From the IMG/VR virus record IMGVR_UViG_3300042485_004778, positions 1-22,885 of that record: a stretch of DNA of 22,885 nucleotides; one strand, 5' to 3'. A program made the position numbers and the translations under genes. How positions within the stretch are numbered: position 1 is the first letter of the stretch; each line of letters begins with the position of its first letter. This DNA is from a virus. The notes under the pieces were generated by a model. It was not told the origin of the DNA, did not search any database, and saw only the letters and a list, made by a program, of their open reading frames with translations. Shown piece after piece: positions 129-19,156 of this stretch.

Positions 129-521
129 ATGCGCGACACCGACGAATCACCCTGCCCCGCCCTCCGACACAACTGCATGGACCTGTTCGACAGCCCACCG
201 GAACCGTTGGATCACCTGTCCTTCGTGATCGACAGCATGGGCATCCCATTCTTGATCGCGACCGTCCATCCGGAGGATCGGCAGGAGCTTGGCCTGGACC
301 GTCCCCTCCCCATCTATCCGACGCCGGACAATTCGCCTGGTGCTGTGCTGGAGCGTGTCGCGAAGAGGATGCTGCGGTCGATGAACCTGCGGCGGTCGAA
401 GGACGATCAGTTGGACGATGACGCGCGGGTCTTCCCCGATTTCCATCAGCCCAATCTGCTGCGATCGGTGAACGATTTCCGCGATACGATGGAAGAGATC
501 GGCTTGACCTCGTCGATCTAA
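129..521 (+). CDS. Hypothetical protein, possible moron
   Basis: This 130-residue protein belongs to no family I recognise. It is acidic and soluble, with no membrane segment or signal peptide. It contains a Pro-rich N-terminal third and an Arg-rich helical stretch around residues 75-95 (ERVAKRMLRSMNLRR). The ATG at 129 was chosen because the TAAATA motif ends five bases upstream, the spacing seen at several late genes on the other strand; there is no Shine-Dalgarno sequence. A second in-frame ATG lies at 177. The gene runs opposite to the late operon and is separated by 38 bp from the next plus-strand gene. Sharing the motif with structural genes suggests it is expressed late. Function unknown. 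Confidence 0.6.
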   Translation: MRDTDESPCPALRHNCMDLFDSPPEPLDHLSFVIDSMGIPFLIATVHPEDRQELGLDRPLPIYPTPDNSPGAVLERVAKRMLRSMNLRRSKDDQLDDDARVFPDFHQPNLLRSVNDFRDTMEEIGLTSSI

Positions 522-559
522 AGGCGCCACCAATCGGCTATAACGACGGGGATCAAAAC

Positions 560-856
560 ATGATTGCACTCTTGGCCTTATTGCTCGCGCAGGCTGAAGA
601 AGGCCCTTGGAAGAAATATGAGCCGCCGCATGAAAACGTCTTCGATCAATTCGATCCCAAAGAGGAAAAGCTCTCCCCTGGACCGCACACATTGGTCATC
701 TCGGATCGTGATGGCATGACGCGAATCGACTATCCGTCTGGCGCAAAATGCCAGCACGCTAGAGATGTGACCCGCCGACAAGTTGCCCCGCCACCAAACA
801 GCAATGGCATCATATATGCCCCATCGACCGTGAAGGCGTTCTGCGTGCCAAGATAA
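560..856 (+). CDS. Small exported hypothetical protein
   Basis: This 98-residue protein starts with a hydrophobic segment (MIALLALLLAQA) ending in an Ala-X-Ala signal peptidase I site, so the mature protein probably begins near residue 13 and lies in the periplasm or outside the cell. There is no lipobox cysteine after the segment. The mature part is charged, rich in Pro and Lys, and has two cysteines (in AKCQHA and near the end in KAFCVPR) that could form a disulfide. A GGGGA Shine-Dalgarno sequence lies 7 nt before the ATG. The style resembles small secreted proteins of sphingomonad chromosomes, so it may be a lysogenic-conversion or host-derived gene. No function can be assigned. Confidence 0.6.
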   Translation: MIALLALLLAQAEEGPWKKYEPPHENVFDQFDPKEEKLSPGPHTLVISDRDGMTRIDYPSGAKCQHARDVTRRQVAPPPNSNGIIYAPSTVKAFCVPR

Positions 857-931
857 AACGTGATCTCCGACACTTCTTTCGTCTTGAGTTACGAGATATG
901 CGAAGCGTCCAAATGACTTAGGGGGTGTGTG

Positions 932-1531
932 ATGATGCGACCAGTGGGATTTGGTCTGATTGCTATCGGCGTCATCTGGTTGCTGATCGCGTTCAATATG
1001 GACACAAGCGTGGAGGTGCCTAGCACGTATTTCGGATCAAGCAGGGTTGAAAATATCGGGCTGATTGCGCAGCGCCAAAACCACCTGATGGTGGCTGGCT
1101 TGGTCACCCTGATCGGCACGCTGCTGGTCATCTTTGGCGGCCAGCGTCAGCCGCCAGAGGCGGTTGCTATCGCAATTAATCCGGCTGCGAATAGGCCACC
1201 GATGGAACGCGATCTTTCGTCTGACGCCTATCGTCTCTGGTTGGCCGAAAAATACGACATCAAGCGCAACGAACTATTCGACCGCTATGTCATGAACCAG
1301 CAGACCTATGCTGACCTAGAAAGTGCATTGAAGGGTGCCCACGACATCGATGTCGCCCATTTGGGTGTGATTGACGAGCAAGCACTGGAAGAACAGCGAA
1401 AAAAAGATGAGTGGGACGCAGAATGGGCGACGGAGCAAGCAGAACTATCTTCGAAGGTCGATAAGGTAATCTATTTGGTGATCGTCGTTTTGATCGTGGG
1501 CGCCGTCGCGGCGCTGGCTTTGAAAGCCTAA
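932..1531 (+). CDS. Three-pass inner-membrane hypothetical protein
   Basis: The 199-residue product has three predicted membrane segments: about residues 5-22, 52-70 and 179-198. Between the second and third lies a charged domain of about 100 residues, rich in Glu, Asp and Lys and probably helical. The start at 932 was chosen because a GGGGG run sits 6 nt upstream; a GTG at 929 and an ATG at 935 are alternatives. Its stop codon directly abuts the stop codon of the endolysin gene on the other strand. It could act in the envelope of the infected or lysogenic cell, for example in superinfection exclusion, but that is only inferred from topology and position beside the lysis genes. Confidence 0.65.
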   Translation: MMRPVGFGLIAIGVIWLLIAFNMDTSVEVPSTYFGSSRVENIGLIAQRQNHLMVAGLVTLIGTLLVIFGGQRQPPEAVAIAINPAANRPPMERDLSSDAYRLWLAEKYDIKRNELFDRYVMNQQTYADLESALKGAHDIDVAHLGVIDEQALEEQRKKDEWDAEWATEQAELSSKVDKVIYLVIVVLIVGAVAALALKA

Positions 1532-2011
1532 CTACGCTTCATTGGTCGAGATCGGCGCGCCTTTGGCATCCAACCAGACCGGCCGACCAGTGACAGCCAC
1601 ACCACGCGGCCACCGGCGAGCGATGCAACGATCCTTGGCGATCCGCATGACGTTCACGCTGTCGCTCTGGTTTCCACCAAGGACGTGATAGTGGGTGGCG
1701 TCTTCGCCGATATAGAAAGCGACGTGGCCGCCACCCGAACGATCGAACACCATGACAGCGCCTGGCGAGAGACGTTCGGCTCGAAGATTGGCGCCCCATG
1801 TCGCCCAGGCCTTCGCGCGGACGCATACGGCGGGTGGCTCGATGTCGGCCTTCAGTATCGCCCAGCCAACAAAGAGGCCGCACCAGGCCACGCTGTCGGC
1901 CGTGTAGGCGATGCCGAGACGCTTGCCGCCAAGTTCCTTCGCCATGGCGAGAATTCGTGGATTGTTGGTTGGGCCTGGCGTTTCGCGCAGACCGATTTCA
2001 GATTTGGCCAT
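1532..2011 (-). CDS. Endolysin, NlpC/P60-CHAP-like (TIGR02594-type) peptidoglycan hydrolase
   Basis: The 159-residue protein resembles the TIGR02594 family, small cysteine peptidases of the NlpC/P60-CHAP type that cut peptidoglycan peptides. The visible catalytic set is Cys44 in SVAWCGLFVGW, His96 in GGGHVAFY and probably Asn114 in LGGNQSD. It has no signal peptide, so it would rely on a holin, and it directly follows two tiny membrane-protein genes. The start is uncertain. The ATG at 2011 has no Shine-Dalgarno sequence, and the codons just upstream in frame encode DPSWLK, resembling the usual Pro-Trp-Leu start of the family, but no start codon precedes them before a TAG. An ATG at 2033-2031, six bases after a TAAATA motif, is out of frame by one base. 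Confidence 0.85.
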   Translation of the reverse strand: MAKSEIGLRETPGPTNNPRILAMAKELGGKRLGIAYTADSVAWCGLFVGWAILKADIEPPAVCVRAKAWATWGANLRAERLSPGAVMVFDRSGGGHVAFYIGEDATHYHVLGGNQSDSVNVMRIAKDRCIARRWPRGVAVTGRPVWLDAKGAPISTNEA

Positions 2012-2039
2012 CTTGAGCCAAGAGGGATCACATGACCCC

Positions 2040-2045
2040 TATTTA
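2040..2045 (-). promoter_or_regulatory. Late-promoter-like TAAATA motif before the endolysin
   Basis: Reading leftwards, CATAAATAG is followed by GGGTC and an ATG at 2033. The TAA inside the motif is also the stop codon of the upstream 59-residue membrane protein. The motif gives the endolysin a possible promoter separate from the tail genes. Confidence 0.5.
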
Positions 2046-2634: not shown

Positions 2635-2639
2635 GCACC

Positions 2640-2645: not shown

Positions 2646-2657
2646 GCTTTCTCTCTT

Positions 2658-2683
2658 GACCCTCCGTTTGTCACCAGAGGGTC
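2658..2683 (-). other. Stem-loop around the stop codon of the tail fibre gene
   Basis: GACCCTC at 2658-2664 pairs perfectly with GAGGGTC at 2677-2683, leaving a 12-nt loop that contains the TGA stop of the fibre gene. The following bases on the minus strand are purine-rich rather than a U-run, so this is not a standard intrinsic terminator. It could protect the 3' end of the long message or slow the polymerase before the next motif. Confidence 0.4.
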
Positions 2684-5600
2684 CATTTGCATTTCACGTT
2701 CGACATCGAGAAATTGTAGTAATTTCCGCTCATCTCGCGGCGATAGTAGTCGCCCTCATTGATCATCCCGGTATCGCTGGACCCTTTGCGCGAATAGACT
2801 GCCAGGGTGACGTTCCCGACCGAGTTATCCAGGTCGAGATCGTCGAAAATCGTGGTGATATCCGCAGAGAAATTCTGCGCGCCATAGACCGATAGCCGCG
2901 TGCCGGTCCAACTCTTCTGCGCGATCGTCTGGCCATTCTTGGTGAGAGCAATCAGCAGGCCGCCATCATTGAGATAGTCGATATAATATGGTTTCCCGCT
3001 CTGCGTCATGGTCTGGCGGCCGCTCGTGTAGGTGAAGCCGATCGAACCGGTTAGCTGGTAGCTGCCATTCGCGATCGTCACGCCAAGGTCGGCCGCATAC
3101 ATCAGCCTGGCGTCGCTGGCGTTGGCCGACGCAGGACCAATTTTCTTCACGAAACGCGACAGGTCCAGCGCCTCCGGATTGATCGTCCCGCCAATCATTG
3201 CGTTACCGCTGATGCGAAGATCGCCGATGATATCGACGCCCGCACCGCCATTCGCATCGGCAACCAGGCGAAGCTGCGCACGATTTCCAGCCGCAACAGC
3301 ATCGACCTGGAAAAAGGCCGTCGTGCGCCCACGAATGTCGGACACCGCGCCCATCGTCTGGCTGACGTTCGCTTCGGCGGCCTGGAGACGGGTCGTGTGG
3401 TTGGCAATCGTCGAGTTGGCGGTCGCGATGGCGGTCTGCTGGGTGTTGATCGTCGCTTGCTGACTAGCCGCAACAGCACCGCTGCCACCAGGCGAGTAGG
3501 CGCAGGGGGTTGGGGCGGTCGCGAATGTCTCGCGAACCTGGGGGCGCAAGAACCATGCCCAGCTATCCGCCTGGCCGCCAAATGTGCCGAATTTGCGCAG
3601 ATACAGGCGGGCCTTGACCGCGTCGGCAGGCGCTTGTCCTTTGAATCCTACTTGGGTCCAGTTGCTCATGTTCGTGCCACCGCTGAGCGGAGTCAGGACA
3701 CCAGATGATGGAGTCGATACAGCACCACCAGAAGCATTTTGGAACTGGAGATAGATTTGCACCTGGCAGCGATGCGCAGCAACCAACACCGAGACATCAT
3801 ACCACTGGTTCGGCTGAACCGTGATATTCTGCATCCAATCTGAACTCCCCGTGGCGCCGCTGCTCTGCTGATAGATGCTGATGGCATTCGCAAATTCAGG
3901 ATGCCAATCGTTGCCGCCGCCATTGATCGGAAACACGACATTCGACTGGCTGTTCATGCCAGTCCACCAACCTGACGTATCGACCGCAAAGTCGGTATTT
4001 TGGAGCAAGTTGCCCCCCGCCGTGCTGTATTGCGCCGTCAGGTTTGCCTGCGTCGTCGCCGTGGATGCTGCCGAGGATGCAGTCGCGGCCGATCCCGCCG
4101 CTGCACTCGCGCTCGACGATGCTTCGCCAGCCCTGATATTCGCGGTGTTCGCGCTGTTCGACGCGGACGTGGCGGACTGCCCCGCCTCCCCCGCCTTCGT
4201 GCTGGCCGTGCTGGCGCTCGAAGCAGCAGCAGACGCAGAACCTGCCGCGCTATTGCTTTCGGTGATGTCTTCAATCCGCAGGGCGACAACGCGGGCATCG
4301 TGGATCGAACCGGCCTGGCCAGCATCGTTCTGCGATTGCACGAAAGGTTTGAACCGGAGAACCGTGGCGGGAATGGCCAAGTTGAAGTCGAAGGCGGTCC
4401 AGGTCGTGACACCAGCGTTTGCGGCGCGCGAATATGGAAAGGTGAACGATCCGCTGGCCAACTGGCCTTGGATGCCAACGTTGACCGGATAAGATGCAGA
4501 TGATCCGCCTTTTGCGTAGCCAGAAACGCGGAGGATGCGGACGCCGTTGCCAGGCATCGGGATGAAATCGCCTTCAGCGGCGTCACGCGCCTGCGAGCGG
4601 AGCGCCCTGCTCGTGCCAATCGCCGAGTTCGCGTCCGCAACGACGGACACCGTGCCGGTCCACATGCCCTTATCGCCATCCTCGAAAGTGGGCTTGGCGA
4701 CCAGATTACCCGCCGCGCGCGATGATGCGTAAAGCGCCTGGCTGCTCGCGACGGCGGCACTATTGGCAGCATTCGAGGCTTGGGTGCTGGCGGTGCTGGC
4801 GCTCGACTGTGCGGCCGACGCGCTGCCCCCGGCTGCGCTGGCTGAATTTGCGGCATTCGACGCCTGGGTCGAGGCCGTGTTCGCCGATCCCGCAGCATTA
4901 TTCGCCGACGTGCTGGCCTGGCTGGCGCTCGTGGAGGCCTGTCCCGCGCTGGTCGCCGCATTGGTGGCGTTAGTCTGCGCGGATGATGCGCTGCTCGCTG
5001 CCCCAGCCTGGCTCGCGGACGCCTGTGAAGCGCTATTGGCAGCAGCGCTCGCCGAACCTGCCGCACCAGTGCTTTCGGTGATATCCTCGATCCGGACGTA
5101 GGAATAATCGACCGTTACGGTGGACGAAGCTGCCATCAGCCGCAGCAGCGAACGGATGCTGGATGCGCCAGCCGCGATCATTGCGTTGGTCGTGGATGCC
5201 GGAACGGTGCCGGACATTTCGACCCACTGATTCAACGCGGTGAAGGTATAAGTAGACTGGACGGTGCCATTTTGCAGCGTGCCACCAGTCGAATTCACGC
5301 CGATCCGGTAAAGCTGAAGCTGCGCGAAAACGGAGCCGCTCTGCTGTCGGACTTTCGCGCTGATCCGATAAATCCGGTCAGGCTGAAGCTGGATCATGCC
5401 GATCTGCGACACGTCTGTCTGCGTTGACGCCGTGACGCGCATCGTCCGGCCAACATCGCTGTTGTTGACGAATGAGAAGGTCGAGTTCGGGGTGATCGAG
5501 GTCAGCGAGGCGGGCAGACCGCCAAAGCCATTTTGCCAAAACTTCCCATCTTGTTGAAAGTCCGAAGGCATCTGCGATGCAGCCGTGAGCTTGGCAGATA

Positions 5601-8600
5601 CGTCCGACGAATTTGCGGCGGTGGCCGAATTACCCGCCGCGTTTGACGAGCTAGACGCGCTAGACGCACTATTCGCGGCAGACGATGCAGATGCGGCGGC
5701 TTCGTTGGCTTTGCTCGATGCTGTGTTGGCCGATTGGGTCGCACTGTTCGCGCTCGTCCCCGCGTTAGTCGCGGAAGTGCCTGCGGCCGACGCAGAGGTC
5801 GCCGCCGCGCTCGCCGATCCAGCGGCAGCAGTGCTGTCGGTAACGTCGGTGACACTCAGGCCAGTAGCGCGGAGATCATGGTCGCTCGCACCGGACGCGC
5901 CGTCCGATACGACGCAGTATCGGATTTTGGCAGTGGTGGCGGGGATCGTTACAACTTCGTCAATATAGCTCCAAACCTTGGAGTTGGCGGGAGTTGCCCC
6001 ACGCAAAATCCAATTGTTTGTGCCCGCTGCGTCCTGAATTTGGACACCCATGCTGGCTTTATATGCACCAAACGACAGGAGGTGTCCGGTAAGCCGCACC
6101 TTACGTTCAGTTGAAAAGGGCCACGGCGAAAGCTCGCCTTCATAGCTGTCACGGTTCTTCAATTGGAGAACGCGAGTGGAGCCATCTGGCGGCGTGAAGC
6201 CAGTTGTGATCGTGGATACGCTGCCGCCCCACTCGCCAACAGAGCCATCCGAAAAGACCCCCTTTTTGATCAAATTTCCGGCTGCGTGACTGGCTGCGGT
6301 CAGCGCCTGTGCGCTTGCAACCGCCGCGCTGTTCCCGGACTCGCTCGCTTTAGTGCTGGCGGTGGATGCTGATCCCGCCGCAGCGGTGGCAGACCCACCG
6401 GCCGCATTCGCCGAATTCGCAGCGTTTGTCGCCGAAGTCGCCGCAGCATTTTTCGAAGCGTTTGCGTTCGTTTCGCTGGTCGCGGCCTGGCTGGCAGACG
6501 TGCTGGCTTCACCGGCTTTTGTAATCGCGGTGTTCGCTTGGGTGGTGGCCGTCGAGGCGGATTGACTGGCCTCTGTCGCCTTTGTCGAAGCGGTCGAGGC
6601 GCTGGTGGCAGCAGCATCAGCCTTTTGACCGGCTGTAGTCGCGGAGGTGGCAGCAGCGGTCTGCGACGATTTCGCCGCATTCTCTGATCCCTTGGCGTTT
6701 GTCTCGCTGGTCGCCGCATTCGTCGCGCTGGTCGATGCTTTACCGGCCTGCGTCGTCGCAGTAGTGGCAGAATTCTGGGCAGCGGTGGCGGATTGTCCGG
6801 CCGCAGACGCGCTGGTCGAAGCCGCCGAGGCGCTCGTGGCAGCAGCATCCGCGCTGTCCTGAGAATCATCAGCAGCAGATTGCGCCGAAACCTGCGACGC
6901 AGAGGCTGCGGTGGCAGATTTGGCTGCATCCGTCGCTTTCGTGCTGGCCGTCGAGGCGCTACCCGCCGCAGCCGTCGCCGAACCAGCGGCGTTTGACGCT
7001 TGGGTTTGAGCCTGGCTTTTCGCGGTTTCAGCGGCCGTCTGTGCAGCCTGGGCTGCATTCTTCGCGGTCGTCGAATTCGCGAACGCGGTTTCGGTATCGG
7101 CCTTCGCCGCCTGCGCTGCGCTCTTGGCGCTTTCAGCGGCAGTTTTGGCCGACTGTGCGTTGGTGTTGGCCGTGCCAGCATTCGTGGCGGCGGTCTGAGC
7201 CTGGCCCCTCGCCGTTTCCGCAGCGGTCTTGGCCGCCACGGCGTCGGTTTCGGCTTTTTCAGCATCGGTCTTCGCCTGGGCGGCATTGGTCGCGGCGGTC
7301 TGAGCATTCGCTTCATGCTGGGCAGCAGCGTCCGCGCTTGCGGCGGCAGCGGCGGTCGAACCATAGGTGGCCTGGAGATCGGCGATCTCGCTTTCCGCAC
7401 CCTGGAAGGCAGCGTCGAGCGTCGCGAATTTCTGCTGGAGCGTGGTGGTCTTCGTGACCGTCTCTTCGACCGTCTCCTTGACCGTTTCGAGATCGGTGGC
7501 AACATCATCGACCTTGCCGATCGCGGTGGAAGCGTCGGCCGCAGCCTGGTCAGCAGCGCCCTTCGCATCGTCGGCGGTATCCTGTGCATTGCCTGCGCGC
7601 GCGGCGGTGACATCTGCGATCTTGTTCTGGAGCGCGACGTAGCGCGAGACGTATGACGACCATGTCAAATTGAACTGCGCACGATCGATAGGCGTGGCTG
7701 CGCTGCCATCGTTCCAGGCAGGCGACAGGCCGTTGAGATAGGCGGTCAGCCCATCAAAAGCGGCGACATAGCTGGTCACCTGAGTGGTGATCCCCAACGC
7801 CTGCGCCTGGATTACCAGGGCGGTCTTGGTCGTCGATGCTTCAGCGTAATCGCGCTCCAGGCGCTTTTTTTCCGCACGATCGAGCCAAGCGTCTTCGCTC
7901 ATCTCGTTGATCTGACTGATCAACACTGCGCCATCAGCCTGCGCTTGTTCGGCCGCTTCCTGGGCGGCTTCGGCAGCTTGGCGCGCGGCCTGCGCGTCTT
8001 CAGAAATCGTCGTAAGAGCGCCACTGACCTCGTTGGCCGAATGGACCGACCAGCAACGCGAATGACCGACGCGGACGCTGTGGACGATCGACGGCGAGGC
8101 GATCAGGCGCGGAGCCGACAGGACCGTCCGTTCGCGGCTGCTGTCGAGATAGAGATCAGACGGCGCAGAGTTCGCCAGAAAACTACCAGCGGCCAGGACG
8201 CCATCGGTCTTGGAAATCAGGTAGCCGCCAAGCTCGTAAAGCGCGCGGCGCACAAGATCGCCGACCGTGGTTTCATCGCTGACATATGCGCACCAGGGCT
8301 GGTCGAACGCTGCCAGCGATGCCGTGTCGAGACCAGACGCGGCGATGCCTGCCTGCTCGCTCAGATGTGCGACAATGTCGGCCAAAGAAGTCGGGAAATT
8401 CGTCCCTCGCTTCGCACCACCGACATCGGCGGTGATCTTACCCGTCGGTTCGGCGCCAAGCAGGAAGCCGCCAGCGCCCGGAACATCGACCCATTCACCA
8501 GGTGCGGGGGCAGCAGCGATGGCCTGGGCCAGCGTATTGACGCGAGCCTTCGCGGCGGGAAGCTGGAGCGCATTTTCATAGACGGCGCGAGTGCCATCGG

Positions 8601-9168
8601 CGGCGCCATATCCGTGGAACTGGTAGAACCAAAATTGACCTTCATAGAGTTTGACCGGCTCGACGTTCTGGCATTCGCCTGAAGTCCAGGGCTTGCGGCG
8701 ATTGCGGACACCAGCCGGACCCTCGACACCACCGGTGCCCAGATAAACGCCAGATAGAAGCTCGACATCCAGGTAGGCTTCAGCGCCAAGCAGAGTGACG
8801 GTCGCGATATCATCGGTGATCTCAAGGCCGCTGATCGAGCCTTCGAACCATTGTCCGCCGAGACCATCGCCTTCGCCGATCCAGATGCGGCCCAGCGCAC
8901 CAGACCAGGACAGTTTCGCCCATTCCGGATTTCCGATGATGGAAAAGCTGATCGACCCGTGATCGGTGGAGACCTGGGAGAAATTCCCGCCCGCCATGAC
9001 ATCGACGGTGCGGGTCGGCCATTCGGTGATGACCGGCTCCCATTCGTAGCCGTCCGCCTGGGTCGCTTCGCCACCCATGGCGTCGATGGAAGTCAGTCGA
9101 AGAGTTTTGGTGCTGCGGTCGCTCGGATCGATGACCGAGACTTCAAAATGGATATTTCTGTTGATCAC
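2671..9168 (-). CDS. Giant modular tail fibre / tail tip (gpJ-like) protein
   Basis: This 2165-residue protein is probably the central tail tip and receptor-binding fibre. Residues 1-380 form the tail-attached N-terminal region. Residues 385-600 contain helical, coiled-coil-prone stretches. Residues 600-960 are a very long Ala/Ser/Thr-rich stalk. Four beta-rich domains follow, at about 962-1110, 1205-1365, 1495-1637 and 1718-1890, separated by shorter Ala/Ser stalks. Each looks like a carbohydrate-binding jelly roll, opening with motifs such as AAGNLI or GGNLLQN and, in three cases, closing on a DITES-like hinge. Residues 1945-2005 (FFQVDAVAAGNRAQLRLVAD) resemble the DUF1983 region of lambda gpJ-type proteins, and the last 150 residues are likely the tip. 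The GTG start lies four bases after TAAATA with no Shine-Dalgarno sequence. Confidence 0.85.
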   Translation of the reverse strand: MINRNIHFEVSVIDPSDRSTKTLRLTSIDAMGGEATQADGYEWEPVITEWPTRTVDVMAGGNFSQVSTDHGSISFSIIGNPEWAKLSWSGALGRIWIGEGDGLGGQWFEGSISGLEITDDIATVTLLGAEAYLDVELLSGVYLGTGGVEGPAGVRNRRKPWTSGECQNVEPVKLYEGQFWFYQFHGYGAADGTRAVYENALQLPAAKARVNTLAQAIAAAPAPGEWVDVPGAGGFLLGAEPTGKITADVGGAKRGTNFPTSLADIVAHLSEQAGIAASGLDTASLAAFDQPWCAYVSDETTVGDLVRRALYELGGYLISKTDGVLAAGSFLANSAPSDLYLDSSRERTVLSAPRLIASPSIVHSVRVGHSRCWSVHSANEVSGALTTISEDAQAARQAAEAAQEAAEQAQADGAVLISQINEMSEDAWLDRAEKKRLERDYAEASTTKTALVIQAQALGITTQVTSYVAAFDGLTAYLNGLSPAWNDGSAATPIDRAQFNLTWSSYVSRYVALQNKIADVTAARAGNAQDTADDAKGAADQAAADASTAIGKVDDVATDLETVKETVEETVTKTTTLQQKFATLDAAFQGAESEIADLQATYGSTAAAAASADAAAQHEANAQTAATNAAQAKTDAEKAETDAVAAKTAAETARGQAQTAATNAGTANTNAQSAKTAAESAKSAAQAAKADTETAFANSTTAKNAAQAAQTAAETAKSQAQTQASNAAGSATAAAGSASTASTKATDAAKSATAASASQVSAQSAADDSQDSADAAATSASAASTSASAAGQSATAAQNSATTATTQAGKASTSATNAATSETNAKGSENAAKSSQTAAATSATTAGQKADAAATSASTASTKATEASQSASTATTQANTAITKAGEASTSASQAATSETNANASKNAAATSATNAANSANAAGGSATAAAGSASTASTKASESGNSAAVASAQALTAASHAAGNLIKKGVFSDGSVGEWGGSVSTITTGFTPPDGSTRVLQLKNRDSYEGELSPWPFSTERKVRLTGHLLSFGAYKASMGVQIQDAAGTNNWILRGATPANSKVWSYIDEVVTIPATTAKIRYCVVSDGASGASDHDLRATGLSVTDVTDSTAAAGSASAAATSASAAGTSATNAGTSANSATQSANTASSKANEAAASASSAANSASSASSSSNAAGNSATAANSSDVSAKLTAASQMPSDFQQDGKFWQNGFGGLPASLTSITPNSTFSFVNNSDVGRTMRVTASTQTDVSQIGMIQLQPDRIYRISAKVRQQSGSVFAQLQLYRIGVNSTGGTLQNGTVQSTYTFTALNQWVEMSGTVPASTTNAMIAAGASSIRSLLRLMAASSTVTVDYSYVRIEDITESTGAAGSASAAANSASQASASQAGAASSASSAQTNATNAATSAGQASTSASQASTSANNAAGSANTASTQASNAANSASAAGGSASAAQSSASTASTQASNAANSAAVASSQALYASSRAAGNLVAKPTFEDGDKGMWTGTVSVVADANSAIGTSRALRSQARDAAEGDFIPMPGNGVRILRVSGYAKGGSSASYPVNVGIQGQLASGSFTFPYSRAANAGVTTWTAFDFNLAIPATVLRFKPFVQSQNDAGQAGSIHDARVVALRIEDITESNSAAGSASAAASSASTASTKAGEAGQSATSASNSANTANIRAGEASSSASAAAGSAATASSAASTATTQANLTAQYSTAGGNLLQNTDFAVDTSGWWTGMNSQSNVVFPINGGGNDWHPEFANAISIYQQSSGATGSSDWMQNITVQPNQWYDVSVLVAAHRCQVQIYLQFQNASGGAVSTPSSGVLTPLSGGTNMSNWTQVGFKGQAPADAVKARLYLRKFGTFGGQADSWAWFLRPQVRETFATAPTPCAYSPGGSGAVAASQQATINTQQTAIATANSTIANHTTRLQAAEANVSQTMGAVSDIRGRTTAFFQVDAVAAGNRAQLRLVADANGGAGVDIIGDLRISGNAMIGGTINPEALDLSRFVKKIGPASANASDARLMYAADLGVTIANGSYQLTGSIGFTYTSGRQTMTQSGKPYYIDYLNDGGLLIALTKNGQTIAQKSWTGTRLSVYGAQNFSADITTIFDDLDLDNSVGNVTLAVYSRKGSSDTGMINEGDYYRREMSGNYYNFSMSNVKCKWTLW
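4024..7371 (-). repeat. Low-complexity Ala/Ser/Thr stalk repeats alternating with beta domains
   Basis: Inside the fibre gene, degenerate repeats encode runs of the type SASxASTxA. The blocks correspond to residues of about 600-960 (6289-7371), 1113-1200 (5569-5832), 1366-1490 (4699-5073) and 1640-1715 (4024-4251). Such runs are known from phage side-tail fibres and form slender trimeric helical stalks. The alternation of stalk and beta domain implies internal duplication of a stalk-plus-domain unit, and it makes the DNA prone to recombination and to misassembly. Confidence 0.75.
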
Positions 9169-9183
9169 CGGCTATTTAGCCGG
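9168..9183. other. Perfect 16-bp palindrome centred on a TAAATA motif
   Basis: CCGGCTATTTAGCCGG is its own reverse complement apart from the central TT/AA geometry, and it overlaps the first base of the GTG start of the fibre gene. It could be an operator for a dimeric protein or a short hairpin at the 5' end of the fibre message. Confidence 0.45.
9173..9178 (-). promoter_or_regulatory. Late-promoter-like TAAATA motif before the tail fibre gene
   Basis: TAAATA is followed by GCCG and the GTG start at 9168. It would restart transcription downstream of the oppositely oriented PIN gene, so the fibre gene need not depend on reading through that insert. Confidence 0.5.
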
Positions 9184-9256
9184 ACGGTCCTTCGCTGATG
9201 GCCGTTGACACCGTGGCGGGAATTTTCGACGAGACGGTATCAGCAAGGGGGAAGTG

Positions 9257-11650: not shown

Positions 11651-14600
11651 TCAAACATAGTTCATCACGCCGTTCACCGCCCGCGACGTGCCGCCGCCCG
11701 ATACCGACAGGCTCGAAGCGATCACCTGGAGAACCTGAAGCTGCTGGAGGGCGAGATCGTTGTTGACCGCCATCAGGTTATTCGTCTCCTGCGTGGCGGT
11801 GACGACGGGATCGATGTTCAACGCGGTGTCGAACGCCTTTTCGATCGAGAGGCCAAGGGCGTCAGTGGTCGAGACCAGGCGGCTCCAGATGTTCTGCGAT
11901 TGCGCGGTCGCGGTGCCATAGACCTCGACGTTGAGGTCTTGGACCTTCTGCACCAGGGCGGCGTAAGCGTCCTGATCCACCGTCTTACCGGCATCGATGT
12001 CCGCCTTCATCGCGTCGAATTTGGCGAGTTCCGCGTTCAAGCGGGTCAGCGCTGTGCGACCCGAACCTTCCCCGTTGAGGAAATCACGGATGTCCTGGAC
12101 GCCCTGCAATTCCGATTTGCGGAGCTTATCGAGTTCGATGGCACGATACTTGTCGATCTGCGCGATATCATCGGCCGTCGCACCATACTGAACCATCTGC
12201 TGACGCAGCGTGTTGATCGGCTTGAGCAGGGCATCGACGGCACCCGCGATCGGGTTTTCGTAGGCCTTGATCGCGGTGACCACACCTTCCCACTGCGTGG
12301 CGATCGACACGGCCTTGTCGAGATCAACCGTCGATTTCAGCAGCTTGCTGGAGAACGCGGAGACGCCAGACAGGACATTCTGCTCCAGAGCGACGCGGAT
12401 CGCATATTCGATCGCATCCCCCTGCCCGTCCTTACCGAAATCCTTGATGTCCGTGCGCCCGCTGCCGCCTTTCAGCTTGCCGGTGCGGCCGATATCGGAG
12501 ACGCGCCACTTGTCCTTATAGGTGCCGATCGAAACCGTTGGGGTGCCGGAAATCACACCGCCGAGTTGGGCCGCGATAGCGTCCAGGCCCTGGTTAATGC
12601 TACCAGCGGCGCCGGTCGTGACCTTCTCGCGCGATGAACTATTCCCCTTCGTGTTGGACGAAAGGTCGCCGTTAGCGTCGCGGGAAATCGTGCTGGTGGA
12701 ATATTTGGCTTTCTTCAGGAGATTGCCGGTAATACCCCCCACGATGCTGCCCGCAACGGCACCGATGGGACCGGCCAGGCCGCCAATCGCGCCGCCAATC
12801 TGGGCGCCACCCGACGACATTTTCAGCCCCAGGGCGTTCGACAATCCAGCTATGGTCCCACCGATCTGCTGTCCCGCGCCGACCTTGCCCATGATTGAGC
12901 CGACGCCTTTCTGAAAGTCGCCACCCTTTTTGAAAATGTCGTTGAAGTCCTGGCCCAGGTCATCGAACCCTTTCCCGATCGACGTGAGTGGGCTTTTCAG
13001 ACCTTCGAGCAGCCGGGTGCCATAATCTGCTTCGCCTTCACCGCCCGAAAACACGCGCTGGGCGGCCTTGCCCAGCCGGTTCTGACCACCCTTTCCATCG
13101 GAACCAAACAGGTTGATCAGGCCGCCAGCCGGGCCAAGACCGGAGAAATCGCCGGACTTCGCGCGCGTGAGGCCGTCGAGCAACGACCCCAGATTTTCGA
13201 TCGCAGAACCGAACGCCCCACCGAACTGCTGACCCAGCACGCTGATCCGATCGGCAAATTCAAAGCGAAAACGGTCGGCGACAACCTGGGTCGCCTGGAT
13301 GTTCGCATCACGGGCGCGCCGGGCGCCTTCCAACAACCGACGCTGATCATCCGTCATTGCCGGGCCGATCGCCTCCAGCGCCTTGATGGCCGCCATGATC
13401 GACTGACCTTCCTGGTCAAGGCTGCGGAGATCATTGGCCTGGGTCGTGCGCGGATCATATTTCGCGATGGTGGACGGCGCGTTCTTGAGCAGCTTCGACT
13501 GGCGTTCGCGCTCGAAGGTTTCCTTCGCGGCCGCTTCCAGCGTCTTCAACTGTAGCTGATATTTCGCATCCGCCAGGTCCACGCCTTCCCGCCCGGCGCG
13601 GACGGTCCAGTCGCGTGTCGATTGGGCGATGTTGAGCGCGTCCTCTGACAGACCGAGCGTCTTCTTGGTCCACTCGAAATCAGCCTTACCAGCGTCATTC
13701 GCGGCTTTCGCATCATTGGCGGCGGCGGTCAGGTCGCGTAGCAATTCACCTGCACGGGCCTGCTGAAGCAGCGTGGCCAGACGCTTCTTGTCATCGTCAC
13801 TGAGGGCCTTGATGACGCCACCGGTGGCAATGGCGTAGGCTTTCTGGAGTTCATATTCTTTCGTGACTTGCTGCGCCGAGATGGGAAGTTCAGCGGCGAC
13901 ATCACGCGCTTTCTCAAGCTGCTGCCAATAGTCACGAACAGCTTCAGCCGAACGCTGCGCATCGGTCTTTTTGTTCGATTTCTTGTCAGGCTTTCCTGGG
14001 ATCGGCGGGGCCACGACCGGAAGATCGCCCTTACCGAGCGGATCATTGGTCGCGTGATCGAGTTGATCCTGAATACGGAGGCTATTCTGGACCGCCTTGC
14101 CATACGCAGCGGAATTCTCGCGATCGGTGCGCCCACCCGACCACCAGTTGCGAAGGCCAGCCATGGTGGCGCTTGGATCGAACGCGGCGGAGAAATCGCC
14201 CTCCCACAATGCCGACCAGGAGCGGTCGGTCGCGGCCTGACGACCACCAGGTAGGATAGCCGCCAGACTGCGTTCCTGCCCCTGGCTTTCCGCAAGCTGC
14301 TTTTTGAGAATTTCCTTCCTTGCTTGTCGAGCAGCGTGCGCCTGTTCATACAGGGCCTGGGCGGCGCGTCCGGTCGCACCAGCAAAATTATCGACATGCT
14401 GAATGGCACTCTCACTGTCGGTGCCGACGCCACGCGTCTCGCCAGCCAGCGTCTTGGCGGCACCAGCAGCTTTATCGAGTTCAGTGTTCAGGCGTTCATG
14501 GGTCGCCGCCACGGCAGCGACGATCGCATCCGCCTTGTTGGCCTCGATCGCATATGCACCGATGCCAAGGGCCAGTCCGGTGACAGCCAGGCCGATCGGA

Positions 14601-15763
14601 CCACCGAACGCGCCCAACATCGCACTGCCAAGCCCACCGGCCGCGACGCGCGCCGCAACCATGTTGGTCACCAGGCCAACGCCGAGCGCCGTCGAGAGCG
14701 CCACGACGCTTGGGATCACGATGTCGAGATTTTTGGTGACGACGGAGAGTGCATCACCCAGCGCCCGCGATCCGGCGACCGCCGTGGCGTTCTGGCCAAG
14801 ATACTCTTCGAGGCCATTCTTCGCGAGGGTCAGATTGTCGGCGAAAGTTTTCGGGATTTTGGCGAATTCATCGTCCAGCGCGCCGGTCAGGCGGCTGTCA
14901 GTGAAGGCCTTGATGATCATCTCGGAGGTGATCTTGCCCTCGCTGCCGAGAGCTTTCAGCGCGCCGACCGGCAGTTTGGTGCTGTCGGCGAGCATCCGCA
15001 TCAGTCGCGGAGCATTTTCCGACATTGCGCGGAATTCTTCGCCCTGGAGCTTCCCGCTTGCGAGCGCCTGGCCAAGCTGGAGGATGGTCGAACTGGTTTC
15101 CTGGGCCGACGCGCCGGAGACTTTCAACGCCTTGGCGACGGTTTCCGTCGTGCGGCTGACTGCGGCCTGGGAAGTGCCGAGGTCTTTCCCGGCGAAGGAG
15201 ACCTTCGAATAAAGTGCAGCGACATCGTCCAACCCGGATCGCGTGGTGGCAGCGATGCGGCTGACATCTTCCATGGCCTTGCCGGAGTCGCCCAGCCCTT
15301 GCACCGCGATGCCGAGTTTCGCGGCCATCAGCGCGTATGCGTCGGTCAGATGGACGGCACCCGCGATGGCGGCCGTGAAGGATAGGCCGCCCAGGATGGC
15401 GCCGAGGCGCGACAGGCCATCCGCGTGACGATCGGTCGAAGTCTTCGCTTTCGCCGACGCTGACTGCATTTGCAGAAGCGCGGCGGTGTTGCGATCTAGG
15501 GCTGCGGTGTTTGCGTGTAGGGCCGTGGCACTAAGCTGAGTGGCAGCATTAAGGCCGCGCATGGCGGCCGATAGGCCAGCCATATTCTGCGACGCGGACT
15601 TGGAGGCCTGGGCGGCACTCGCCATCGCTTTGCGGGCGGCATCCATGCCACGCTGGGCAGAACCAGCGCCGTTACCGATGCTGCGGAGGGCGGCGTTAGC
15701 CTGGGCGGCGCCACGCTTAGCGCCCGCCGCGTCGATGTTTACTTTGATGGTCCGTGTCGTCAC
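11651..15763 (-). CDS. Tail tape measure protein
   Basis: This 1370-residue protein sets tail length and travels through the tube at infection. The N-terminal 130 residues are Ala-rich helices. Residues of about 135-340 match the TIGR02675 tape-measure N-terminal domain, with the conserved GKLQGEEFRAMSENAPRL near residue 240. A hydrophobic Gly/Ala stretch lies at about 355-410 and another at about 960-1015, typical membrane-active segments of tape measures. Long helical regions fill the middle. By the usual scaling of 0.15 nm per residue the tail would be roughly 200 nm long (inference). The GTG start lies four bases after TAAATA with no Shine-Dalgarno sequence. The gene follows the frameshifted chaperone pair, the classic order. 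Confidence 0.93.
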   Translation of the reverse strand: MTTRTIKVNIDAAGAKRGAAQANAALRSIGNGAGSAQRGMDAARKAMASAAQASKSASQNMAGLSAAMRGLNAATQLSATALHANTAALDRNTAALLQMQSASAKAKTSTDRHADGLSRLGAILGGLSFTAAIAGAVHLTDAYALMAAKLGIAVQGLGDSGKAMEDVSRIAATTRSGLDDVAALYSKVSFAGKDLGTSQAAVSRTTETVAKALKVSGASAQETSSTILQLGQALASGKLQGEEFRAMSENAPRLMRMLADSTKLPVGALKALGSEGKITSEMIIKAFTDSRLTGALDDEFAKIPKTFADNLTLAKNGLEEYLGQNATAVAGSRALGDALSVVTKNLDIVIPSVVALSTALGVGLVTNMVAARVAAGGLGSAMLGAFGGPIGLAVTGLALGIGAYAIEANKADAIVAAVAATHERLNTELDKAAGAAKTLAGETRGVGTDSESAIQHVDNFAGATGRAAQALYEQAHAARQARKEILKKQLAESQGQERSLAAILPGGRQAATDRSWSALWEGDFSAAFDPSATMAGLRNWWSGGRTDRENSAAYGKAVQNSLRIQDQLDHATNDPLGKGDLPVVAPPIPGKPDKKSNKKTDAQRSAEAVRDYWQQLEKARDVAAELPISAQQVTKEYELQKAYAIATGGVIKALSDDDKKRLATLLQQARAGELLRDLTAAANDAKAANDAGKADFEWTKKTLGLSEDALNIAQSTRDWTVRAGREGVDLADAKYQLQLKTLEAAAKETFERERQSKLLKNAPSTIAKYDPRTTQANDLRSLDQEGQSIMAAIKALEAIGPAMTDDQRRLLEGARRARDANIQATQVVADRFRFEFADRISVLGQQFGGAFGSAIENLGSLLDGLTRAKSGDFSGLGPAGGLINLFGSDGKGGQNRLGKAAQRVFSGGEGEADYGTRLLEGLKSPLTSIGKGFDDLGQDFNDIFKKGGDFQKGVGSIMGKVGAGQQIGGTIAGLSNALGLKMSSGGAQIGGAIGGLAGPIGAVAGSIVGGITGNLLKKAKYSTSTISRDANGDLSSNTKGNSSSREKVTTGAAGSINQGLDAIAAQLGGVISGTPTVSIGTYKDKWRVSDIGRTGKLKGGSGRTDIKDFGKDGQGDAIEYAIRVALEQNVLSGVSAFSSKLLKSTVDLDKAVSIATQWEGVVTAIKAYENPIAGAVDALLKPINTLRQQMVQYGATADDIAQIDKYRAIELDKLRKSELQGVQDIRDFLNGEGSGRTALTRLNAELAKFDAMKADIDAGKTVDQDAYAALVQKVQDLNVEVYGTATAQSQNIWSRLVSTTDALGLSIEKAFDTALNIDPVVTATQETNNLMAVNNDLALQQLQVLQVIASSLSVSGGGTSRAVNGVMNYV

Positions 15764-15766
15764 GGA

Positions 15767-16533
15767 CTATTTAGAATTAACGGCCACCTTCTCGCTCATC
15801 AATCGAAGCTGGTGATTATCCACGAGAACAATAATTCTGGCCGCAGACTCCCATTCGTCTACGTCCATCAAACGCATGTATTGCACGATATCCAAATATG
15901 GGATTTGACCCATGCCGCCCATCGCGCCGATTGGACGGTGAGACTGTAGATGAGCGAATGCTGTCCAGAAGAACAGTTCTAGGCCGGTCAGCGGCGGCGC
16001 ATCGGCTGCGATCTTTTCCCGCATCTTGCGGGACCGTTCATGACCGCGTTCCGCGTCCCGGTTGAGTTTAACCACCTGGGACGCGAATTTCGCGTCGTAA
16101 TCGATGCGCGCGATTAGTTTTTTGCGATGGTCTCGGTCTGTGCGGCGATGCTGACTGCCTTGAAGTTCGCAGCATCAAGCGCCTTGTTCCAGATGGACAG
16201 GACGACCCATTCATGACCATCGGTCAGCAGAAATTCGCGACAAAGGTCCGGATCGAACTTCACCGGCTTGTCGTCTTCATCGACCATGTCCCAATCGACC
16301 ACACTGAATTCCATCAGCGTATCGACAAGCTGTTCGATGTCATTGAGCTTGTCCAGGCGCGCTTTTCGCTTCGGCTCTTCCAGCTTCGCCTTGGTGGCCT
16401 GCGACAGGAAATCGATATACCGGCACTTGTAGCGGCCACCCTTCACGTCCAGTTCTTCATCAGCGATGTCGATCCACACACCGTTTGTAGATGCTTCGCG
16501 ATTAACGCGTGAAACAGATTTCAGTTTAACCAA
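15767..16533 (-). CDS. Tail assembly chaperone G-T fusion by -1 frameshift
   Basis: Ribosomes that slip back one base at 16117-16123 bypass the TAA of the G protein and continue for 116 codons, giving a product of about 255 residues. The joint region encodes LIARIDYDAKFASQ and then the T domain (VVKLNRDAERGHERS to the end). The reading frame between the slip site and the downstream open frame has no stop, and the 42-base distance keeps it exactly in phase. In lambda-like phages the T part binds the tail tube protein while the G part coats the tape measure. Position between tail tube and tape measure fits. The T stop TAG forms the end of the next TAAATAG motif. A GTG at 16075 could in principle start T alone, but it has no ribosome site. 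Confidence 0.85.
15768..15773 (-). promoter_or_regulatory. Late-promoter-like TAAATA motif before the tape measure
   Basis: TAAATA is followed by GTCC and the GTG start at 15763. AAATAG within it is also the last sense codon and the stop of the T frame. Confidence 0.5.
16080..16116 (-). other. Tandem stem-loops downstream of the slippery site
   Basis: Directly after the slip site TAATCG (16116-16111) can pair with CGATTA (16103-16098) across a 7-nt loop. One base later GACGCG (16096-16091) pairs with CGCGTC (16085-16080) across AAATT. Structures just 3' of a slippery heptamer commonly stimulate -1 frameshifting. Confidence 0.5.
16114..16533 (-). CDS. Tail assembly chaperone, gpG-like (unshifted product)
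   Basis: The 139-residue zero-frame product ends at TAA right after the slippery A AAA AAC. It is the short form of the tail assembly chaperone that lies between tail tube and tape measure genes in siphoviruses, and it would bind the tape measure while the tail polymerises. It is a charged, mixed alpha/beta protein (DEELDVKGGRYKCRYIDF at 25-42, acidic DMVDEDDKPVKFDPDL at about 91-106). Translation appears to begin at a TTG at 16533 because GAGGG lies 7 nt upstream, but that site is buried in a hairpin. No better start is present. Confidence 0.85.
   Translation of the reverse strand: MVKLKSVSRVNREASTNGVWIDIADEELDVKGGRYKCRYIDFLSQATKAKLEEPKRKARLDKLNDIEQLVDTLMEFSVVDWDMVDEDDKPVKFDPDLCREFLLTDGHEWVVLSIWNKALDAANFKAVSIAAQTETIAKN
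16117..16123 (-). other. Programmed -1 ribosomal frameshift site, A AAA AAC
   Basis: In the zero frame the codons are GCA AAA AAC TAA, so the heptamer A AAA AAC has the ideal X XXY YYZ phase, with the stop codon next. Slipping gives AAA then CTA and enters the long T frame. Confidence 0.85.
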
Positions 16534-16537: not shown

Positions 16538-16564
16538 TAACCCTCAAATTCAATTTACGGGTTA
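16538..16564 (-). promoter_or_regulatory. Hairpin covering the ribosome site of the tail chaperone gene
   Basis: The 27-base element is a near-perfect inverted repeat. TAACCC pairs with GGGTTA at the ends and AAATT with AATTT inside, separated by two mismatched positions on each side. The GAGGG ribosome site for the TTG start at 16533 lies in the 3' arm. It may limit chaperone translation, or its DNA symmetry may bind a regulator. Its outer edge overlaps the TAAATA motif. Confidence 0.5.
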
Positions 16565-16568
16565 TTTA
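16563..16568 (-). promoter_or_regulatory. Late-promoter-like TAAATA motif before the chaperone genes
   Basis: CATAAATAA lies three bases past the U-run of the tail tube terminator and 29 bases before the TTG start. It would start a new transcript for the G/T genes. Confidence 0.5.
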
Positions 16569-16571: not shown

Positions 16572-16603
16572 AAAAGGAGCCGACCCCTTGCGGGACCGGC
16601 TCC
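16572..16603 (-). terminator. Rho-independent terminator after the tail tube gene
   Basis: On the minus strand a 12-bp stem begins GGAGCCG and ends CGGCTCC, with two G-U pairs in the middle and a GCAA tetraloop, followed by TTTT. It lies 27 bp after the tail tube stop and separates that gene from the chaperones. Confidence 0.85.
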
Positions 16604-16630: not shown

Positions 16631-17533
16631 TTAGAGGAAGGTCACCGACGTGGACGTGTTGGCAACCGGATCGAGACCACCCGACAGATTGATGACCGAG
16701 TAAATCATCTCATCTTCCTGGTCCTGCGGGCGGGCGAAATTGGCCTTATAGACCGTCAGCTTGATGCCGTTGCCGACGCTGCCGAGCGCGATCTCGACAA
16801 GCTGACCGACCTCGCCCAGCGTGTTCGCCAAGGTGTGGTCCTCTTTGAATACAGTGACGCTGCCGGTCACGGTGCGGCGACCGCTGGTGGCGATGTTGCG
16901 GGCCTGCTTGGCGCCCATCTTGTAAATGGCGTTGCGGGTGTGGGCGACCTCCAGGGTGAAAGACGAAAGCTCCAGGTCATCAAACGCACCGATCTTGACC
17001 ACGCCAAGTTCAGCCGAAGTCAACAGCGGGACGCTGCTTTCGACGCCTTCGGTCAGGCCCTCAATCTCAGTGTCGGTCTCTTCCAGGCTCTGGCCGACCA
17101 AGGGGAAGGTCACGCGGATGAAGGTGCCAACCTCGCCGGAAATGCTGGCACTTACGCACTGCACACCGCGAAAATACTGGACGTTCACGCCATCTGCGTT
17201 CTGGGTCAGCTTGCGCACGGTGAACGACTTGTCGGCCTTGCCAGCTTTGATGACGTTGTTCGCCAGATCGCCACTGTATGCGCTTTCAAACAGCACCTTG
17301 ATCGCCGGACTGGCGCGAAGCTCCATTTCGAACTGGCCGGTGACGGATTCCGTCAGGGCACGGGCGCCCAGGCCGTCGCGGGTCGCGGTCTTCGTTTCGG
17401 CCTCGACCATATCGGATTCAAGACTGATGGTAGAACTATCTAAGACAGCGACGGGAATCCAAGCGCCGGTAGTGGGGGTAACACCAGCCACGTCTTCGAC
17501 GATGATGGCGTAGGAAATGTCAGAGGTATTCAT
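16631..17533 (-). CDS. Major tail tube protein
   Basis: The 300-residue, beta-rich protein matches phage tail tube proteins: an N-terminal ISYAIIVEDVAGVTPTTGAW, a central TESVTGQFEMELRASPAIK and a long C-terminal beta region (GRRTVTGSVTVFKEDHTL). It polymerises as stacked rings around the tape measure. It is preceded by the tail terminator and followed by the chaperone pair, the standard siphovirus order. It stands in its own unit with a TAAATA motif 52 bases upstream and a strong terminator behind, as expected for a very abundant product. The ribosome site GGAG lies 13 nt before the ATG, longer than usual, in a TTTGGAGACC context shared with the capsid gene. Confidence 0.88.
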   Translation of the reverse strand: MNTSDISYAIIVEDVAGVTPTTGAWIPVAVLDSSTISLESDMVEAETKTATRDGLGARALTESVTGQFEMELRASPAIKVLFESAYSGDLANNVIKAGKADKSFTVRKLTQNADGVNVQYFRGVQCVSASISGEVGTFIRVTFPLVGQSLEETDTEIEGLTEGVESSVPLLTSAELGVVKIGAFDDLELSSFTLEVAHTRNAIYKMGAKQARNIATSGRRTVTGSVTVFKEDHTLANTLGEVGQLVEIALGSVGNGIKLTVYKANFARPQDQEDEMIYSVINLSGGLDPVANTSTSVTFL

Positions 17534-17585
17534 TAGAAAAAACGGTCTCCAAATAATCGTTTAGAGCCGTTCGGCCCTTCACCGT

Positions 17586-17591
17586 TATTTA
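17586..17591 (-). promoter_or_regulatory. Late-promoter-like TAAATA motif before the tail tube gene
   Basis: CGATAAATAA lies 52 bases before the ATG, giving a leader of about 45 nt that carries TTTGGAGACC. The layout is nearly identical to that before the major capsid gene. Confidence 0.55.
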
Positions 17592-17614
17592 TCGATCTGA
17601 CCGTTTCCACCGCC

Positions 17615-18013
17615 TCAGGCGGGCCTATTCTTCAGCCTGGACGATCGCCATGGGATCGAGACACGGATTTCGTATCCCCGATCTTCATAAACATCGACAT
17701 CAGCACCGCCGCACCACAGGTTATCGGTAGACCATTCTTCGAAAATGTCGCGGATATGCTGGGCGAGTTCATTTGCTGCGCCGGTCCCCTCACCTTTCTT
17801 GTCACGGACGACCGCGATGATCCGACCAAGCTGGGTCTGTCGATATTGCGTCCGACCGGTGCTGCTGCGCTGTGACGCACCAGGCGAAAAAGAAATCGAG
17901 ACGCGAAGGATGTCGGCGATATCCTGTGTCGGACGATTGGCGCGGATCACGGGCGCGGGATGATCATATGCGGCGTCGAAGCGCGCGCGGAGGATGGAGA
18001 GGTCTTCGATCAT
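17615..18013 (-). CDS. Tail terminator protein (DUF4128-like)
   Basis: The 132-residue product has the size and pattern of tail terminators that cap the growing tube and join it to the head: an N-terminal helix (IEDLSILRARFDAAYDHPAP), a beta strand region beginning ADILRVSISF, a central helix in a Gly-rich setting (GEGTGAANELAQHIRDIF) and a final strand (YEIRVSIPW). It starts by ATGA overlap with the gp10-like gene and immediately precedes the tail tube unit. The family assignment is by pattern and gene order. Confidence 0.75.
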   Translation of the reverse strand: MIEDLSILRARFDAAYDHPAPVIRANRPTQDIADILRVSISFSPGASQRSSTGRTQYRQTQLGRIIAVVRDKKGEGTGAANELAQHIRDIFEEWSTDNLWCGGADVDVYEDRGYEIRVSIPWRSSRLKNRPA

Positions 18014-18414
18014 GACGTGAACCCAGCGGTCGCCGCATCGATCGCATTATCGGCCCAACCCTCCGGCGCCTGCTTTGAGTGACCGTCCAGGAGTGGGCCG
18101 GTGTAGACGGTAGGGTTGGTGATGTAGACATCCTGATACGCCTTCCGCGCGGCGACCGTGGCCTGGGCGCGACCGATCGCACCGCCGCCGCTCTTATCCT
18201 CGCCCGCAATTTCAGCCATGGCTGGCGCGCCCAGGGTGGTCTGGAAATTGTGGCGGAAATGGCCGGTATCGACCGGCGCGGCCAGCACGAGATTGGTTGT
18301 GGCATCAAGCGCGATCTTGCCAGCGACCAGCTTCTCTAGGTCCGCGTTCAGAGCGTCTTCCACGTTCAGATTATCTAGGATGTCTGAGACATCGATTACG
18401 AATTCATGGCTCAT
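18010..18414 (-). CDS. HK97 gp10-like neck / tail-completion protein
   Basis: The 134-residue protein carries the hallmark LAAPVDTGHFRHNF at about residues 44-57, matching the P-V-D-T-G-x-L/F-R motif of the HK97 gp10 family. In the C-terminal half, VYITNPTVYTGPLLDGHS also fits the family. Such proteins help join head to tail. It lies between the stopper and the tail terminator and overlaps both by ATGA, so the four genes from 19156 to 17615 form one coupled run. Confidence 0.85.
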   Translation of the reverse strand: MSHEFVIDVSDILDNLNVEDALNADLEKLVAGKIALDATTNLVLAAPVDTGHFRHNFQTTLGAPAMAEIAGEDKSGGGAIGRAQATVAARKAYQDVYITNPTVYTGPLLDGHSKQAPEGWADNAIDAATAGFTS

Positions 18415-18755
18415 CCCTTGACGACGACCTCCGACACAATCGTGGTCGATTTCAGCATCACCGCGCGGGTCTGTGTGATCGCCAGGCGACGAGCGCCGAC
18501 CTGGATGATGTCGCCAATTTCCGGAGTGGCACCACGGATAAGCGCACCCGAAAGCATGATCTTTCGCCCGGCCTCGTCGGTGCTTTCAACCGGCTTATCG
18601 ACCATCATGATCGGCAGTTGAACGACCGCCCCTGGCACCTTCTTATCGGTGACCGGATCGAACGTCGGCGCGGTCTCGCGACGCAAGATCGCAGGGGAGC
18701 CGAACAGGTTGCCGATCAGGTCATCGGCAAGAGCAGAGAAAGTCTGCTCGATCAT
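18411..18755 (-). CDS. Head-tail stopper-like protein
   Basis: This 114-residue beta-rich protein has the size and position of a head closure (stopper) protein that seals the connector and docks the tail. It contains APTFDPVTDKKVPGA at about 29-43, and GDIIQVGARRLAITQTRAV near residues 81-99, a pattern typical of these small barrels. It starts within the stop of the upstream adaptor gene (ATGA), with GAGGA about 8 nt upstream. The role is assigned from gene order and fold pattern and could be exchanged with a related minor neck protein. Confidence 0.7.
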   Translation of the reverse strand: MIEQTFSALADDLIGNLFGSPAILRRETAPTFDPVTDKKVPGAVVQLPIMMVDKPVESTDEAGRKIMLSGALIRGATPEIGDIIQVGARRLAITQTRAVMLKSTTIVSEVVVKG

Positions 18756-19156
18756 CGGGCCATCCTCGACGAAGAAGCGATGCGGGCGCTGGCATTGTTG
18801 CTACGAAGCGCCGCGATCGGGGCCAGGATGGCGGTGATCTGCGGATAGGGATCACGATCAAGATCACGCTTGGTCGTTACGCGGCCGACACCGGCGAGTT
18901 CCTGGGAAGATTCCGTCACTGTTGGATCGACGGCCTGTGCGGTCAGGAGGGCGGCGGCGAGGACGATTGCGGCGCGTTTCGCCAGGGGATCGACTTCATC
19001 ATCCTTCGAGAGCGCACCGACATATCGATCAACGATATAGTCGCTGGCGCGGATCAGGAGGGCGGCGCGCATGTCGTCGGCAGCGGTTGCCCAGCCCTGC
19101 GTCAGGCGGGCATCATGAAATTCATCTGCTTCAGCGAGGGTCGCGAAAATGGTCAT
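18752..19156 (-). CDS. Head-tail adaptor, DnaT-like ssDNA-binding family
   Basis: The 134-residue helical protein resembles phage proteins named DnaT-like, which are in fact usually head-tail connector adaptors: an N-terminal LAEADEFHDARLTQGW, then RAALLIRASDYIVDRYVG at 30-47 and a long Ala-rich helix (RAAIVLAAALLTAQA). It is the first gene after the capsid terminator. Its ATG lies six bases after TAAATA with no Shine-Dalgarno sequence, and its stop overlaps the next start. It thus appears to head the four-gene completion operon. Confidence 0.8.
   Translation of the reverse strand: MTIFATLAEADEFHDARLTQGWATAADDMRAALLIRASDYIVDRYVGALSKDDEVDPLAKRAAIVLAAALLTAQAVDPTVTESSQELAGVGRVTTKRDLDRDPYPQITAILAPIAALRSNNASARIASSSRMAR

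Follow-up and report, generated by a model that had tools for sequence, protein, structure and literature searches.

In a siphovirus-type phage fragment, IMG/VR record IMGVR_UViG_3300042485_004778 (taken whole, its 22,885 bases being referred to here as the window), the short element [A/C]TAAATA is likely to be the late promoter of the phage group to which the fragment belongs, a single −10-type element without a −35. It is probably read by the host RNA polymerase together with a phage late factor. Initiation about 5–6 nucleotides (nt) 3′ of the motif would place +1 at or within 1–2 bases of the start codon in many late genes, and the resulting leaderless mRNAs would be translated through recognition of the start codon at their 5′ end. 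Set farther upstream and followed by a leader with a Shine–Dalgarno (SD) sequence, the same promoter would drive the capsid, tail tube, scaffold and chaperone genes, whose products are presumably the most abundant, making the 5′ end a simple setting of protein stoichiometry. Taken as a whole, this is an explanation that we consider quite probable.

Spacing of the motif to start codons

TAAATA occurs 10 times in the window, where 100 dinucleotide shuffles gave 1.34 ± 1.19 and never more than 5, and all 10 sites sit shortly 5′ of gene starts. A first-pass annotation had listed six starts that follow the motif closely without an SD site, and proposed that the motif is a −10 element of leaderless late mRNAs. 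The six sites are exact, with gaps of 5 (129), 6 (2033), 5 (2634), 4 (9168), 4 (15763) and 6 nt (19156), and, as claimed, none of these starts has an SD match at a usable distance. Five of them (129, 2634, 9168, 15763 and 19156) are real gene starts; the ATG at 2033 is not, because TGA comes immediately after it, and the lysin starts at ATG 2011. The list was also incomplete by four sites, at 16563, 17586, 20300 and 20991, which head the leaders of the genes for the tail chaperone (29 nt), major tail protein (52 nt), major capsid protein (58 nt) and scaffold (53 nt), leader length being taken from the motif onwards.

Seven further records carry a comparable array of motifs: G001 (34 kb), G002, G010, G011, G012, G013 and G014. 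Most of the comparison records are fragments or trimmed prophages, and G002 and G010 derive from the same isolate, 2922434878. Across these eight records, window included, 102 of 119 TAAATA sites lie on the late strand. Around the 77 non-redundant late-strand sites, starts of long open reading frames (ORFs; at least 50 codons) are found at gap 4 (20), gap 5 (19) and gap 6 (2), with 0–3 at every other gap up to 30. When hexamers are ranked by start spacing, TAAATA has the top count (52/102), the overlapping CTAAAT scoring 39/54 and AAGGAG 8/37. The head and tail region of G002 has almost no nucleotide similarity to the window apart from one 100-nt piece; despite this, its tape measure, adaptor and fibre genes each retain TAAATA, 4–5 nt and a start.

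The check on related phages that had been proposed with the first-pass annotation was run, and the spacing recurs strongly, including in loci fetched after it had been predicted. In 13 new relatives, retrieved with the G012 portal protein at 54–78% identity, 33 of 52 sites are at gap 4–6 (binomial P ~4 × 10^-35 against a 3.5% background). The pattern now spans more than 20 phage records and dozens of virion genes, and the motif is common to two lineages whose head and early genes are unrelated. No TAAATA at gap 4–6 is present in 35 distant portal relatives (23–33% identity, plus one short fragment), none of the three TAAATA sites in a 197-kb Sphingomonas core region is at this gap, and in the T4 late region ATG follows at gap 4–6 in 0 of 52 TAAATA sites. 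The spacing pattern is likewise negative in a Rhodovulum phage and in the control record G015.

The motif as a probable late promoter

The conserved element comprises [A/C]TAAATA alone, with no −35 and at most 0.11 bit at any position from −60 to −2 other than the A/C base. The T4 late promoter is TATAAATA at −13 to −6, and that of phage Aeh1 is CTAAATA, from −12 to −6, with +1 expected about 5 nt past the last A (PMC1524935). The sites described here share with these promoters a single TATAAATA- or CTAAATA-like element without a −35, and they precede late (virion and lysis) genes on the late strand. The proposed −10 assignment fits the T4/Aeh1 arrangement with the last A at −6, and under this geometry, with a gap of 5, transcription would begin exactly at the start codon.

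Two further arrangements bear on promoter function. At the adaptor gene, a terminator ends 8–12 nt before the motif in G000, G001, G002 and G012, where the segments fold at −28 to −35 kcal/mol; with so strong a terminator directly ahead, transcription must restart there. In G013 and G014, the tape measure and Ad1 genes have leaders of 29 and 20 nt, respectively, with AAGGAG/AGGAGG SD sequences, and TAAATA stands at the head of the leader. Because these orthologues keep the motif in addition to a leader and SD, at a distance where a translation signal would not be expected, the motif is better read as a promoter. The base before TAAATA, C or A, tracks leaderless versus leadered genes in the first set (P = 1.3 × 10^-4), an association unsupported in the new set alone (P = 0.54). 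Dyad symmetry around TAAATA was also considered and is weak and unconvincing.

Leaderless-type and leadered gene classes

Starts of the leaderless type lack SD sequences: pooled over the relatives, anti-SD energies average −1.6 kcal/mol at 43 such starts and −4.7 kcal/mol at 78 other starts (P = 1.8 × 10^-7). For 34 of the 43 there is no earlier in-frame start. Start codons in this class are ATG in 33 genes and GTG in 10 (23%).

The two arrangements divide by gene function. Across lineages, a leader is present in 16 of 16 cases at the scaffold, capsid, tail tube and chaperone genes, with an SD and the motif 20–76 nt from the start. The terminase subunits, portal, protease, adaptor, tail terminator, tape measure, 117-amino-acid (aa) tail protein, fibre and 83-aa protein are leaderless in 29 of 32. 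The split is significant by Fisher's test (P = 4 × 10^-10), on counts made by hand from the gene table and with lineages within a family not independent of one another. The suggestion of leaderless late mRNAs is supported in a refined form: it would apply mainly to genes whose products we take to be low-copy, whereas at the high-copy ones a leader with an SD separates this promoter from the start codon. We propose that the presence of a leader sets virion stoichiometry.

The major capsid leaders of G010 and G013 have GC-rich inverted repeats at their very start (for example, ccgtgaggc...gcctcacgg), with a fold z-score of about −2.8. Hairpins at leader 5′ ends as a general feature were not retained; they are suggestive for some capsid and tail genes, the mean z-score being only −1.4 against a mononucleotide shuffle.

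Alternative explanations and opposing evidence

The motif could instead act in the RNA as a signal for translation initiation, such as an A/U-rich substitute for the SD or a site for ribosomal protein S1, with transcripts starting upstream. The strict 4–5 nt spacing to the start codon and the lack of SD at these starts would suit such a signal, as would a G at the fourth base past the motif, seen in 31 of 43 leaderless cases versus 15 of 37. It does not account for the motif lying tens of nucleotides from the start in leadered SD genes, for its retention ahead of the leadered G013/G014 tape measure and Ad1 genes, or for the terminators that end just 5′ of it at the adaptor gene, and we consider it improbable. 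Coincidence fares far worse. A stop codon lies within TAAATA, so the motif might mark where upstream genes end, and it does supply the upstream stop in some cases, such as the ORF ending at 15767. The gene 5′ of 9168 is divergent, however, and the shuffles and the hexamer ranking contradict chance or base composition, as does the recurrence of the pattern in the 13 new loci and its absence from the 35 distant ones; this explanation can be regarded as refuted.

Somewhat less improbable than a translation signal, although still unlikely, is that a housekeeping or alternative sigma factor of the host reads TAAATA, no phage factor being needed and the sites being ordinary host leaderless promoters. 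Consistent with this, no sigma-like gene was found in the phages, the motif is shared by lineages that differ in head and early genes, and leaderless mRNAs are known in alphaproteobacteria (PMC3616915). The scarcity of TAAATA in the Sphingomonas core region, and its absence there at gap 4–6, argues against a host sigma, a control that depends on the host link given by one RadC fragment, 62% identical to Sphingomonas.

Several observations weigh against the late-promoter and leaderless-mRNA explanation itself. At a gap of 4, a +1 placed as in T4 would fall one base into the start codon, so that initiation would have to move by a base, and about half of the TAAATA sites are not leaderless. The high- and low-copy labels are our assumption, taken from general knowledge of siphovirus virions. 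Searches of the eight records, mostly fragments or trimmed prophages, gave no match to sigma-70 region 2 (PF04542) and no member of the gp55 family (phmmer with T4 gp55; phrog_234), gp33 and the clamp not having been included. The GTG starts of the leaderless type include those of the window tape measure and fibre; in Escherichia coli, leaderless mRNAs are translated inefficiently from codons other than AUG, and leaderless starts in S. meliloti are AUG in 171 of 171 cases (PMC3616915). GTG on these genes may mean that they are expressed at a low level or that the host ribosome is more tolerant.

Among early ORFs, hmmscan gave no convincing candidate for a late factor. A zinc-ribbon protein of 106–117 aa is 91–95% identical between otherwise different phages (G001 30391–30744 (+), G010 5992–6312 (−) and L055 2428–2748 (−)); it is one of the few early-region genes common to the two main lineages and has a weak match to a PHROG named translational regulator. 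As a general late factor it was rejected, being absent from most records. Two small proteins, encoded at G001 32312–32776 (+) and G010 5328–5738 (−), are alike by eye; the former has weak MarR winged-helix matches and the latter no significant family match. The pair are possible early-region regulators.

Mini-ORFs ahead of the lysins

ATG TGA, a start codon directly joined to a stop, comes after the lysin promoter in the window (2028–2045 (−)) and in G002. G001 (2021 (−)) and G010 (33165 (+)) encode a different lysin, and here the promoter is followed by ATG-AAC-CTC-TGA or ATG-AAC-TCC-TGA. The TGA of this mini-ORF overlaps the CTG that opens the conserved N terminus of the lysin, a frame with no standard start. 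The presence of a putatively leaderless mini-ORF ahead of two unrelated lysins, in two independent cases, suggests a translational delay of lysis, with the mini-ORF as a possible attenuator that sets lysis timing.

Arrangement of the window and its host

For the head and neck, PHROGs calls in the window are portal, head morphogenesis, scaffold, major head protein, adaptor, head closure and neck; for the tail and lysis they are tail terminator, tail proteins, chaperones, tape measure, giant fibre and an endolysin-like protein. On the plus strand, a predicted CTAAATA promoter element (118–123) lies 5 nt ahead of ATG 129, the start of a leaderless-type gene (129–521) encoding 130 aa with no assigned function, the frame of which is conserved in G001, G002 and G010. 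The remaining promoters are on the minus strand. The ATAAATA element of the endolysin (2040–2045) is followed after 6 nt by the start–stop mini-ORF (2028–2033) and then by the endolysin-like gene (1532–2011; phrog_1259/phrog_9589). Located after the fibre gene is the 83-aa gene (2383–2634), 5 nt past CTAAATA (2640–2645) and leaderless-type also in G001, G002, G011 and G012. The giant tail fibre or central fibre (2671–9168, 2165 aa) and the tape measure protein (11651–15763, 1370 aa) both have leaderless-type GTG starts, each 4 nt past CTAAATA (9173–9178, where the upstream gene is divergent, and 15768–15773).

Preceding the tail assembly chaperone (16114–16533) is an ATAAATA element at 16563–16568, directly 5′ of which is a Rho-independent terminator hairpin followed by TTTT (16576–16603). 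The major tail (tube) protein (16631–17533, SD GGAG) has its ATAAATA at 17586–17591. For head–tail adaptor Ad1 (18752–19156), with a leaderless-type ATG, the ATAAATA element (19163–19168) lies 6 nt ahead, and directly 5′ of it is the terminator hairpin 3′ of the capsid gene (19181–19210; folded segment −27.8 kcal/mol). The start of the major capsid gene (19231–20241) was set at ATG 20241, with SD GGAG and ATAAATA at 20300–20305. The scaffolding gene (20329–20937, SD AAAGGA) has CTAAATA at 20991–20996, where the head morphogenesis gene has its 3′ end. Between the fibre and tail genes, on the strand opposite to the late genes, is a PIN_8-domain protein (9254–10576 (+); Pfam E = 1.5 × 10^-38), a possible cargo or defence gene.

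A near-identity search of INPHARED (50,697 phage records) returned no close match to the window, and scans of genome contigs for a host gave no match. At the edge of G001 (93–509 (+)) is an N-terminal fragment of RadC, 62% identical to that of Sphingomonas parapaucimobilis, which hints at integration near radC of a sphingomonad; from this one weak clue, the host of the group is probably a sphingomonad. NZ_CP155756.1 (197 kb), labelled a plasmid, contains the core genes proS, secDF, dnaK, groEL and ftsH and is therefore probably part of a chromosome. G012 is a prophage with an integrase, and one isolate genome accounts for at least four such phage records (IMG/VR 2922434878_000003, _000005, _000006 and _000008).

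Comparison with known systems

Leaderless mRNAs in Gram-negative bacteria are usually scattered exceptions; here leaderless initiation seems to form a regular class of expression, with a shared promoter-to-start spacing. As in the bacterial examples (lambda cI, Sinorhizobium and mycobacterial mRNAs), the start codon is at or beside the predicted 5′ end and SD is lacking. Unlike them, it is the ordinary form of a whole class of virion genes, behind one phage promoter and with 23% GTG, the 5′ ends being predicted.

The T4-family late promoters (gp55/gp33/gp45), especially CTAAATA of Aeh1, resemble the element in having a single −10-type sequence without a −35 at late genes. However, the phages here are small and siphovirus-type, at least one is an integrated prophage, and the gp55 family was not found in the eight records; T4 late promoters mostly precede 24–28-nt leaders with SD, whereas here start codons occur at gap 4–6. 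Late promoters of giant phages (AACA-N6-TA/G in AR9, TATG in phiKZ) are also short and phage-specific, but the motif differs and a phage-encoded multisubunit polymerase is used; AR9 leaders are 26–491 nt long (PMC5312081).

The interpretation offered with the first-pass annotation is well supported: in this clade of small phages, a late promoter like that of T4 would be combined with starts that are systematically leaderless. More tentatively, and as something rather short of probable, we put forward a clade in which stoichiometry is set by mRNA 5′ ends, one late promoter standing at the start codon for low-copy parts or 20–76 nt upstream, with an SD leader, for abundant ones, lysis is gated by leaderless mini-ORFs, and the late factor is unrelated to gp55. 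The pattern suggests that small temperate phages have a late factor resembling that of T4, missed by current gp55 and sigma-70 profiles, and with one promoter serving orthologues with or without leaders, these phages form a natural test set for the role of leaderless translation.

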